Part shown: positions 5,898 to 8,120 of the stretch, piece by piece | How the letters are laid out: every line of letters begins with the position of its first letter | How positions within the stretch are numbered: the first letter of the stretch is position 1 | DNA from: Enterocloster bolteae | Lineage (GTDB): Bacteria; Bacillota_A; Clostridia; Lachnospirales; Lachnospiraceae | DNA: 30,138 bases | NCBI GenBank assembly: GCA_021769025.1 | Contig: JAETTS010000001.1 | Location: forward strand, 1-30,138 | Reading direction: 5' to 3' | The notes under the pieces: generated by a model | Database searches by the model: none | Told to the model about the DNA's origin: nothing | What the model saw: the letters and a program-made list of their open reading frames with translations, nothing else | Program-made: the position numbers and the translations under genes

Positions 5898-5924
5898 ATA
5901 TCGGCTTATTCCTGTAAAATATTA
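5898..5924 (-). promoter_or_regulatory. Sigma-D (sigma-28) type promoter for the coiled-coil protein
   Basis: Read on the minus strand, TAAT is followed by exactly 15 bases and then GCCGATAT. The Bacillus sigma-D consensus is TAAA-N15-GCCGATAT, so the -10 box matches 8 of 8 and the -35 box 3 of 4. The -10 box lies about 58 bases before the start codon at 5839, a normal leader length. The same element occurs in front of the gene at 7406-8038. Confidence 0.8.
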
Positions 5925-5990
5925 TGGAGTCTTCTTGGAATTATGAGAATATGGAATGAAATTGGAAGCCGTATACGACATTGCTGCCTG

Positions 5991-6019
5991 TTGTATTTCC
6001 GGTAGTTTCCGATTATAAT
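5991..6019 (+). promoter_or_regulatory. Sigma-A type promoter of the small protein/sirtuin/DUF951 operon
   Basis: TTGTAT at 5991-5996, a 17-base spacer and a perfect TATAAT at 6014-6019, 45 bases before the ATG at 6064. The -35 box is weak (3 of 6), but spacing and -10 box are ideal. The region 5840-6063 otherwise holds only this promoter and the divergent sigma-D promoter. Confidence 0.6.
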
Positions 6020-6063
6020 ATAAGAAAAGTGCTGGTAACCAAGAGAGAAGAGGTGAGTTGTAT

Positions 6064-6321
6064 ATGATCCAACTAAAAGGAGTTATGGGGATTCCACTTT
6101 TGAAAAAAAGTAAATTCACCGGCAGTGAAGGGGCACTGCGTTTTGTGCTGGAAAAACATTCAGATGAGGAAGGGGAACGCCTGGCAGCTGTATGTTGGAA
6201 GGGGGAGTTCTGCTCAGAAGCAACTCCGGAGGAGGAAAAAACAACGGAATATTTTCCGTTTACAGCAGAAGGCGTAGAGCAGGCGGAGAAATGGCTGAAC
6301 CAGCAGTGCAGGGAGATTTGA
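6064..6321 (+). CDS. Small unrecognised protein upstream of the sirtuin
   Basis: An 85-residue soluble protein I cannot assign. The N-terminus is basic (QLKGVMGIPLLKKSKFTG), the middle holds a CWKGEFC segment with two cysteines four residues apart, and the C-terminus is an acidic helix (FTAEGVEQAEKWLNQQ). There is no signal peptide or membrane segment. The ATG at 6064 is preferred over the TTG at 6058 because AGAGGTGA is then about eight bases away. It lies 21 bases before the sirtuin gene and behind a TATAAT promoter, so it is probably the first gene of that operon and could be a partner or regulator of the deacylase; that link is inference from position only. Confidence 0.65.
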   Translation: MIQLKGVMGIPLLKKSKFTGSEGALRFVLEKHSDEEGERLAAVCWKGEFCSEATPEEEKTTEYFPFTAEGVEQAEKWLNQQCREI

Positions 6322-6342
6322 GAGGAAAGGAGCAGCAAAACT

Positions 6343-7059
6343 ATGACAGAGATTGAGACTTTAAAGCAGTGGATAGAAGAAAGCGATAACATTGTATTTT
6401 TCGGCGGAGCGGGGGTATCTACGGAAAGTGGGATCCCTGATTTCAGAAGCCAGGACGGGCTTTACAATCAGGAGTATGATTACCCTCCCGAGACCATTAT
6501 CAGTCACAGCTTCTATATGAGCAATCCCAAAGAATTTTACCGTTTCTACAAAAATAAAATGATCATTACCACGGCAAAGCCCAATGGTGCCCATCTGGCT
6601 CTGGCAAAGCTGGAGAGGGAAGGGAAGCTAAGGGCGGTGATTACTCAGAATATTGACGGGTTGCATCAGATGGCCGGAAGCAAAGAAGTGTTGGAACTTC
6701 ACGGTTCCATCCATCGGAATTATTGCACAAGGTGTGGGAAGTTTTACGGACTTAAGGCGGTGGAAGAGGCAAGGGATATTCCTGTCTGTAAATGTGGAGG
6801 GATCATCAAGCCAGATGTGGTGCTCTATGAAGAAGGGCTGGATCAGGAAGTCCTCCAGAAGTCTGTGGGCTATATCCGCCAGGCTGACATGCTGATCGTA
6901 GGCGGAACATCCTTAACCGTATATCCGGCGGCAGGGCTTATTGACTACTATCAGGGGCAAAAGCTGGTTCTCATCAACCGATCCGCCACCGCCAGGGATG
7001 CCAATGCGGATCTGGTGATCACGGATCCCATTGGGCAGGTGTTTCAAGCAGTGGTGTAG
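6343..7059 (+). CDS. NAD-dependent protein deacylase (Sir2/CobB family)
   Basis: A 238-residue sirtuin that removes acetyl or longer acyl groups from protein lysines while consuming NAD and making nicotinamide and O-acyl-ADP-ribose. All hallmarks are visible: GAGVSTESGIPDFR (residues 22-35) for NAD binding, TQNIDGLH (101-108), the catalytic H120 in LELHGS, and a zinc ribbon of C128, C131, C149 and C151 (CTRC and CKC). The length matches bacterial sirtuins, without extra domains. The ATG at 6343 follows AAAGGAG. It sits between a small unknown protein and DUF951 in one operon. Whether it is a deacetylase or removes succinyl and similar groups is not clear: I did not find an unambiguous Tyr/Arg pair of the desuccinylase type after the PDFR motif. 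Confidence 0.95.
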   Translation: MTEIETLKQWIEESDNIVFFGGAGVSTESGIPDFRSQDGLYNQEYDYPPETIISHSFYMSNPKEFYRFYKNKMIITTAKPNGAHLALAKLEREGKLRAVITQNIDGLHQMAGSKEVLELHGSIHRNYCTRCGKFYGLKAVEEARDIPVCKCGGIIKPDVVLYEEGLDQEVLQKSVGYIRQADMLIVGGTSLTVYPAAGLIDYYQGQKLVLINRSATARDANADLVITDPIGQVFQAVV

Positions 7060-7101
7060 ATGTTGAGGGTACATAAACCATGCCCGGAGGAGGAAACCAT
7101 T

Positions 7102-7287
7102 ATGGTATATGAAATCGGAGATATTGTAAAATTAAAAAAACCCCATCCCTGTGGCAGCCACGAATGGGAGGTTCTCCGTGTAGGAGCAGACTTCCGTCTG
7201 AAATGCACAGGATGCGGCCATCAGATCATGGTGGAGCGGAAACTGGTAGAGAAAAATACACGAGGCATACGCAAACCAGAAAATTAA
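7102..7287 (+). CDS. DUF951 family small protein
   Basis: A 61-residue protein with the DUF951 pattern: an N-terminal GDIVKLKKPHPCG, then SHEWEVLRVGADFRLKC, then CTGCGHQIMVERK. The cysteines (HPCG, KCTGC) suggest a small zinc-ribbon-like beta barrel. Family members are widespread in Firmicutes, often near ribosomal or replication genes, and may bind nucleic acid; the role is not established. The ATG at 7102 is chosen because GGAGGAGG lies just upstream; the frame extends to 7060 but those codons include the ribosome binding site. It is 42 bases after the sirtuin and closes the operon, followed by two hairpins. Confidence 0.85.
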   Translation: MVYEIGDIVKLKKPHPCGSHEWEVLRVGADFRLKCTGCGHQIMVERKLVEKNTRGIRKPEN

Positions 7288-7291
7288 AAAG

Positions 7292-7312
7292 TGCCTTTCT
7301 GATAGAAAGGCA
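7292..7312. terminator. Hairpin downstream of DUF951
   Basis: A nine-base stem (TGCCTTTCT/AGAAAGGCA) with a GAT loop five bases after the DUF951 stop codon. There is no proper T run on the plus strand; on the minus strand it is followed by CTTTTTAATTTT. It probably acts together with the next hairpin as a shared end for the converging transcripts. Confidence 0.5.
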
Positions 7313-7317
7313 TACAA

Positions 7318-7353
7318 AAAGGGCTGAAGCACATCCATGTGCAGCAGCCCTTT
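7318..7353 (-). terminator. Terminator of the second sigma-D-preceded gene
   Basis: A nine-base stem AAAGGGCTG/CAGCCCTTT is extended inside by GCACAT/ATGTGC with small symmetrical bulges. On the minus strand the hairpin runs into TTTTTGTATG, giving an intrinsic terminator about 50 bases after the stop of the gene ending at 7406. Confidence 0.75.
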
Positions 7354-7405
7354 GGCTTACCTCGTGCATCAGAATTTACATCCAATCCTGCGTACACGCG
7401 ACAAA

Positions 7406-8038
7406 TTATGCCATAGCGCCTACGCCCTGCTTTGCATAATAATCATCAAACAGCTTATTGACCGCCTCATGGGTCTCGCCAGAGATGGAAGGAAGTTCTC
7501 CGCCCCAGGCAGCGCCTGCCTGCTCGAATCCCTTCTCAACAGCAGCCTGCATCTTCTTCATGGTCTCAACATCGTCTCCGGCCAATGCCTGAGCGAAATC
7601 AAAGATTCTCTGAGAAGTCTGCTTTACACCCCAGAAACCATCTTCGGAGATTGCTTCCTGGGCTTCCGCCTTGGTCTTTTCATCCACCGTATAGTTGCCG
7701 CTTGCCATCATCTTCCAGAAATCATCACCCTGTGCCTTGGAAGCGGTGATGCCCTGCTTCTGGAACATCTGAGTCATCATGTTGGTAAAGCGGGACATCT
7801 GATTGTTCAGATCATCCTTTAAACTCTGTACCAATGCAGCACGGTCAGACTTGCTCATCTTGGTGATATCTGTGTCTTTGCTAAGCTCAACCTTATCCAC
7901 ATCAGGAGTCTCAGCCTTGGCGGTATCTTTCTTAGAAGAAGCCGCTGCAGCATCTGTTGTGGAAGCGGTAACATGGGTCTGCTGTACAGACTGGCTATAC
8001 TGCCGGGCGACAGCATCATAATTTGTATTTAACTGCAT
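7406..8038 (-). CDS. Unrecognised soluble protein with a sigma-D-type promoter
   Basis: A 210-residue protein of unknown function. The first 60 residues are polar and low in complexity (SVQQTHVTASTTDAAAASSK) and probably disordered, as in proteins exported without a cleaved signal. The rest looks helical: DRAALVQSLKDDLNNQMSRF, an FTNMMTQMF segment, and a C-terminal AAVEKGFEQAGAAWGGELP followed by a helix ending FDDYYAKQ. The GFxxA...GG pattern recalls DUF5610-type domains, a weak impression only. The ATG at 8038 follows GGAGGAATTCAT. A sigma-D-like promoter (8094-8120) and a terminator (7318-7353) make it monocistronic. Like the gene at 5108-5839 it may belong to the motility regulon; no flagellar gene is visible nearby. 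Confidence 0.78.
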   Translation of the reverse strand: MQLNTNYDAVARQYSQSVQQTHVTASTTDAAAASSKKDTAKAETPDVDKVELSKDTDITKMSKSDRAALVQSLKDDLNNQMSRFTNMMTQMFQKQGITASKAQGDDFWKMMASGNYTVDEKTKAEAQEAISEDGFWGVKQTSQRIFDFAQALAGDDVETMKKMQAAVEKGFEQAGAAWGGELPSISGETHEAVNKLFDDYYAKQGVGAMA

Positions 8039-8093
8039 ATGAATTCCTCCTTATAGAACTATAAATAAACATTGGAAAATTTATCTATCTACT

Positions 8094-8120
8094 ATATCGG
8101 CACAAACCGTCATTATCTTA
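8094..8120 (-). promoter_or_regulatory. Sigma-D (sigma-28) type promoter
   Basis: On the minus strand TAAG is followed by 15 bases and then GCCGATAT, against the Bacillus consensus TAAA-N15-GCCGATAT: 8 of 8 in the -10 box and 3 of 4 in the -35 box. The -10 box is about 56 bases before the ATG at 8038, nearly the same distance as in the promoter at 5898-5924. Confidence 0.82.

Follow-up and report, generated by a model that had tools for sequence, protein, structure and literature searches.

What could be the role of two uncharacterised genes that are each preceded by a near-perfect promoter for the flagellar sigma factor sigma-D (sigma-28, FliA)? The question is raised by a stretch of 30,138 nucleotides of Enterocloster bolteae (contig JAETTS010000001.1, positions 1 to 30,138), referred to below as the window, on whose minus strand lie the genes P1 (5108 to 5839, 243 residues) and P2 (7406 to 8038, 210 residues). 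Our analysis indicates, with a probability of roughly four in five, that both genes are under sigma-D control and have a flagellar role. The promoters are of the late-flagellar type and, in the genomes sampled, the relatives of both genes co-occur with flagellar genes, so that P1 and P2 probably encode accessory flagellar parts that have been overlooked. In the mechanism proposed, sigma-D would direct RNA polymerase to one promoter before each gene, P1 and P2 would be made together with flagellin after completion of the hook-basal body, and their products would serve the flagellum as accessory proteins.

The sigma-D-type promoter of P1 occupies positions 5898 to 5924 of the minus strand and reads TAAT-A-TTTT ... 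GCCGATAT, and that of P2, at 8094 to 8120 of the same strand, combines TAAG with the same GCCGATAT octamer. Both agree with the consensus at 8 of 8 positions of the -10 box and at 3 of 4 positions of the -35 box (TAAT and TAAG for TAAA), with a spacer of 15 nt. The initial annotation had placed near-perfect sites about 57 bases before the two open reading frames (ORFs); reading frames, boxes and spacing were all confirmed, and the gaps between site and start codon are 58 nt for P1 and 55 nt for P2. Scanning of both strands of the window for TAA-N16-GCCGATAT returned exactly two matches, both on the minus strand, versus a mean of 0.01 expected by chance; none of 100 dinucleotide-preserving shuffles reached two.

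The element is conserved upstream of related genes, strongly for P2 and partially for P1. Genome contigs were scanned with a profile built from the P2 alignment and 80 of the 193 confirmed loci were kept. These loci, together with 20 remoter regions hand-picked for spread from 102 P2 genomes and the window itself, constitute the full set of 101 P2 genes used for promoter scoring. The sigma-28 consensus was scored over 15 positions with a threshold of 12, chosen after inspection of the data, and rows L101-L107 of the P1 set were removed from scoring as duplicates of L115-L121. A score of at least 12 was obtained for 83 of the 101 P2 genes (73/91 in the first-pass subset) versus 15 of 821 control ORFs taken from the same loci, and for 30 of 44 once P2 genes at least 75% identical had been collapsed. 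Upon the additional requirement of at least 7 of 8 matches in the -10 box, the counts were 82/101 for P2, 7/821 for the controls and 6/18 for P1. The test is conservative since the control ORFs include genuine sigma-D genes. Six of the 15 high-scoring controls, all uncharacterised or FliD_C-like genes, have at least 7/8 in the -10 box; of these six, four come from L118 or from regions that also contain flagellar genes.

Many of the P2 loci have an upstream site of the form TT(T/A)AnTTTT-N10-GCCGATAT at the same spacing, and in 8 of the 80 the 400 nt searched contained no GCCGATAT-like octamer. The sites recur before relatives whose records name several genera, and the sequence flanking them varies. 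Among the six closest P1 loci fetched, GCCGATA(A/T) is present in four, GTCGATAT in one and neither in the last; the site is mostly absent from the remoter, longer P1 relatives.

The strict pattern TWWNNTTT-N11-GCCGATAW was scanned in six genomes bearing P2, with the reversed pattern as a control. It returned 24 sites versus 2 for the control, with two to six sites per genome, one of which is that of P2 in each of the six. Six sites precede P2 (6/6 genomes) and five precede P1 (5/6 genomes), the two genes together representing 11 of the 24; two precede flagellin genes, as identified by blastp and by eye. The remaining sites lie before a probable chemotaxis receptor (one, by eye), a CTP-transferase/oxidoreductase protein (one), uncharacterised ORFs (five, in L145, L150, L156, L157 and L159) or no convincing gene (four). 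The Schaedlerella genome G001 displays two strict sites in all, those of P1 and P2. An unknown family of about 310 residues (start ...SLNTYTQNMKMQMKW) was also observed behind strict or near-strict sigma-D promoters, at 53 to 1015 of L156 and 4825 to 5748 of L037, both on the minus strand, and the ORFs of L157 and L159, from two genomes and with strict sigma-D promoters, look like one unknown family of about 412 residues (start MEI.P..G.R.EK).

The distribution of both genes was surveyed in 250 genomes from the family of G001, all counts being made regardless of genome completeness. P2 is present in 102 of these genomes, FlhA in 124, P1 in 13 and FliA/sigma-D in 124 at an E-value of 1e-45 (123 over the cut-off). 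FlhA or FliA/sigma-D was found in all 102 P2 genomes versus 23 of the 148 genomes devoid of P2 (p 1e-47), and both were found in all 13 P1 genomes (p 8e-5), p-values that are descriptive because related sequences are not independent. Taken separately, FlhA is present in 101 of the 102 P2 genomes, the exception, G207, having sigma-D, and sigma-D is likewise present in 101, the exception, G043, having FlhA. Within this survey the relatives of P1 and P2 are confined to genomes with flagellar or sigma-D genes, and P2 is present in 101 of the 124 FlhA genomes. Ten genomes chosen for bearing P2, including G001, which also belongs to the survey, all contain FliA and FlhA, with a broken extra FlhA copy in G002. 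In 4 of the 13 P1 genomes, P1 shares a contig with flhA, at a distance of about 18-27 kb. A phylum-wide sample, in which the DUF5610 Pfam model matched 1 of 249 genomes and the profile A6 described below matched 13, was uninformative on co-occurrence because 209 of the 249 carry FlhA regardless. Promoter conservation and co-occurrence with FlhA and sigma-D together support the placement of the two proteins in the late motility regulon, as the initial annotation had proposed.

Neither P1 nor P2 matched a Pfam or NCBIfam family above cut-off, and the NCBIfam scan of seven relatives and partners gave no match. The predicted structure of P2 comprises a low-confidence segment (residues 1-54, predicted local distance difference test score, pLDDT, below 50) and a helical domain (63-204). 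Comparison of the P1 and P2 models with the PDB by Foldseek returned no match reaching E 0.001, and profile searches against PDB sequences were equally unhelpful. For P2, VIA-align listed no more than weak helical matches, which leaves room for a family outside that listing. Residues 68-202 of P2 nevertheless align with a DUF5610-like group (hhalign, A5 against A6, 99.8%, E 4.9e-28), of which the best 120 of 153 matches were listed under names including Desulfitibacter, Tissierella and Sporosarcina. Three members of this group were compared with the Pfam model of DUF5610 (PF18433): P0310 and P0359 exceed its cut-off and P0323 falls short of it. The P2 of the window does not match this Pfam model and differs in its N-terminus, and a distant P2 relative in L133 obtained 15.6 bits versus a cut-off of 26.4. 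Being under the Pfam cut-off and yet related by profile, P2 is, judged from these alignments, a remote relative of DUF5610 proteins and is not filed as a member.

The genomic neighbours of these relatives are in part flagellar. In L167 the DUF5610-like gene has a flagellin-FliS-FlaG-FliD group on one side and, on the other, a FlgN-like gene after which come flgB, flgC, fliE, fliF and fliG; in L174 it precedes a FlgN-resembling gene and flgB. The FlgN-like gene of L167 (17.6 bits vs a cut-off of 30.5) and its flgB were scored by Pfam, the other neighbours in both regions being named by eye, and as both regions look like Desulfitibacter they are near to a single observation. In remoter Lachnospiraceae, a small protein with FliD_C similarity is frequently encoded next to P2. 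Of ten proteins scanned with Pfam, those of L135, L115 and L117 exceed the FliD_C cut-off and that of L126 is 0.3 bits under. The L126 and L135 proteins adjoin P2, and other proteins adjoining P2 match them by blastp. The codon adaptation of P2 (0.755) is the highest of the genes compared after three ribosomal reference genes, the value of the RR gene, computed from wrong coordinates, being disregarded.

A number of other neighbours were recorded. FliD_C-like proteins identified by Pfam or blastp adjoin P2 in L070, L074, L126, L127, L128 and L135, and those of L115-L118 lie near flagellar genes or receptors, all four with sigma-D-type sites. Weak EF-hand matches were seen beside P2 in L125 (3881 to 5275, plus strand) and in L131 (1823 to 3043, plus strand), the latter gene having its own sigma-D-type site and ending 16 nt upstream of P2. 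A long P1-like gene adjoins P2 on the opposite strand in L051, L055, L056 and L058, and chemotaxis-receptor-like genes, recognised by eye, are located upstream of P2 in L056.

P1 is predicted to consist of long helices (about 76-211) between low-confidence N- and C-terminal segments, with pLDDT below 50 at residues 13-44. Its helical region corresponds to the C-terminal portion of longer proteins that possess an extra N-terminal region; the best 120 of 172 P1 matches were listed. Four longer relatives were scanned, of which those of L168 and L171 are over the cut-off for DUF6033 (PF19498) and those of L172 and L173 show no family; P1 itself has no Pfam match to DUF6033. The relative in L168 adjoins fliW, DUF6470, flgL, flgK, flgN and flgM (Pfam) and that in L173 is located among flagellin genes (by eye), while flagellar or FliD_C-like genes lie about 6-8 kb from P1 in L115, L116 and L117. 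In total, 13 P1 regions were read (L115-L121 and L168-L173), with flagellar genes within a few genes in two and within about 6-8 kb in three more. Receptor-like genes (by eye) are found near P1 in L118 and L171. Comparison of the two proteins with each other revealed no homology (hhalign probability 0.4%), which rules them out as paralogues.

Both genes stand alone in the window, with no partner gene adjoining, and both are followed by hairpins, in agreement with the terminators originally noted. The intrinsic terminator of P1 (5066 to 5108, minus strand) has a 20-bp stem and a T run and folds at -36.6 kcal/mol, none of 200 shuffles being equally stable. The probable terminator of P2 (7315 to 7352, minus strand) is a GC-rich hairpin with a T run, accompanied by a second hairpin with a T run at 7292-7312. 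An Rfam scan of the window gave no match. The gene between P1 and P2, described earlier as an unrelated sirtuin on the other strand, is indeed a SIR2-family gene (6343 to 7059, plus strand; Pfam scan, 3.3e-51) and is outside the system on present evidence. A sirtuin gene, 65% identical to that of the window and in a different orientation, also adjoins P1 in L117 (4696-5421). The ending MA, which had been pointed out as common to both proteins, is real and was dropped as a clue: for P1 as for P2, it is displayed by 16 of the 120 relatives listed, and the ending SIDITV or SIDISV is commoner among the P1 relatives (56/120 listed), so that the shared MA is probably incidental.

Several explanations of these genes have to be weighed. 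The two sites could be chance resemblances or the sites of another factor, inasmuch as GCCGATAT by itself occurs in three exact copies in the window (25 copies with at most one mismatch versus 20.96 expected) and the two-box pattern with two mismatches allowed is at chance level, with 9 matches versus 7.24 expected. The weight is therefore carried by the exactness and position of the sites; the exact two-box matches with fixed spacing are above chance and recur before relatives of several genera. Chance was rejected on the shuffling results, and an origin by chance or from another factor is scarcely credible. The alternative raised in the initial annotation, a sigma-D regulon that a non-motile bacterium has turned to some non-flagellar use, would agree with the ORF list of the window, which showed no obvious flagellar gene on inspection, with seven of its proteins scanned against Pfam. 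It is disfavoured by the family survey, in which no P2 or P1 genome lacks both FlhA and sigma-D, and by the presence of the strict pattern before flagellins in related genomes; such reuse was rejected on this co-occurrence and is very unlikely. Sigma-D control with a flagellar role remains the preferred explanation and has in turn a number of observations against it. The A at position 4 of the -35 box is missing in both promoters and the TTT element is absent from that of P2. Eighteen of the 101 P2 genes score below 12, 15 of which are remoter relatives (several low-scoring genes sit close behind a gene on the same strand), and only 6 of the 18 P1 genes reach this score. By the profile used, 23 of the 124 FlhA genomes are devoid of P2, and G403 bears a DUF5610-like gene while being absent from the list of FlhA matches. 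No known fold was recognised for P1 or P2 in the Foldseek and VIA-align comparisons. The majority of the relatives' loci that were fetched are not adjacent to flagellar genes: flagellar neighbours were seen in two of the eight DUF5610-like regions read, most of which extend over only 2-4 kb, and the P1 regions other than the five named above showed no recognisable flagellar gene next to P1.

Within the sigma-D regulon, the site of action of the two proteins distinguishes two further explanations. We tentatively favour, at somewhat less than even odds, export of P1 and P2 by the flagellar type III apparatus via the disordered N-terminus, where they would act on or at the hook or the filament. 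The second likeliest possibility, also a serious candidate, is that they would be cytosolic assembly or regulatory factors, either assisting late export substrates as chaperones or regulating chemotaxis or the assembly of the flagellum. Export is favoured because of the low-confidence N-termini, whose first segment is conserved, the low cysteine content and the high codon adaptation of P2. The probably disordered N-termini and the lack of a signal peptide that had been reported from the sequence agree with the pLDDT values given above and with a reading of the sequences, which showed no hydrophobic core. The start M[KRQE][IV] is found in 100 of 120 P2 relatives (the best 120 of 2742 matches) and 102 of 120 P1 relatives listed, all related sequences, versus 47 of 907 controls, and cysteine per residue amounts to 0.0035 and 0.0021 in the two listed sets versus 0.0144. 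Against export, cysteine occurs in 72% of the P2 relatives listed (120), which sets them apart from typical filament proteins, and chaperone-like genes stand beside the two DUF5610 genes of flagellar clusters. A cytosolic role would suit the mainly helical model of P2, flagellar chaperones being mainly helical, as well as the many cysteine-containing relatives, the FliD_C-like proteins that adjoin some distant P2 genes as a substrate might adjoin its chaperone, and the position of the two DUF5610-like genes before FlgN-resembling genes. It is less easily reconciled with the long low-confidence N-terminus of both P1 and P2, conserved in its first segment and not typical of small chaperones, and with the isolated position of both genes in the window. 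When cysteine and N-terminal residues were applied to known flagellar proteins, with 1-5 sequences per class, exported and cytosolic proteins were not separable.

The promoters described here can be compared with known systems. Late flagellar genes of Bacillota are driven by sigma-D promoters with the consensus TAAA-N13-16-GCCGATAW (PMC3865298), and the flagellin promoters of Eubacterium and Roseburia are of the sigma-28 type, with TAAA and CCGATAT (PMC3720852). The predicted promoters of P1 and P2 are alike in the TAAA-like -35 box, the spacer of 15, the GCCGATAT -10 box, the distance of 55-58 nt to the start codon and their conservation; they differ in the TAAT or TAAG of the -35 box. Among described families, the helical part of P2 aligns with the DUF5610 group, two genes of which lie in flagellar clusters, and the DUF6033 proteins, one of them beside flgM-flgN-flgK-flgL-fliW, share the helical region of P1 in their C-terminal part, the DUF6033 domain itself being missing from P1. 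Within the collection of papers searched, neither DUF5610 nor DUF6033 is mentioned, and further literature searches listed nothing on these families. The Fed proteins (flagellar co-expressed determinants) of Campylobacter are comparable with P1 and P2 by description, in so far as P1 and P2 would be secreted.

This kind of regulon is already known, and P1 and P2 are widespread predicted members of it to which no function has been assigned. Gut commensals from this group have pro-inflammatory flagellins (PMC3720852), and their flagella are of interest for that reason. P2, as a widespread, probably abundant and putatively flagellar component outside any named family, lends itself well to a straightforward genetic test. 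It is conceivable, though rather doubtful, that in flagellated Lachnospiraceae sigma-D is used to make a set of unrelated and previously unrecognised proteins exported by the flagellum via disordered N-termini, comprising P1, P2, the small proteins resembling FliD_C and two or more additional families. If this were true, the late flagellar regulon of gut commensals would deliver a small secretome to the filament or to the host.

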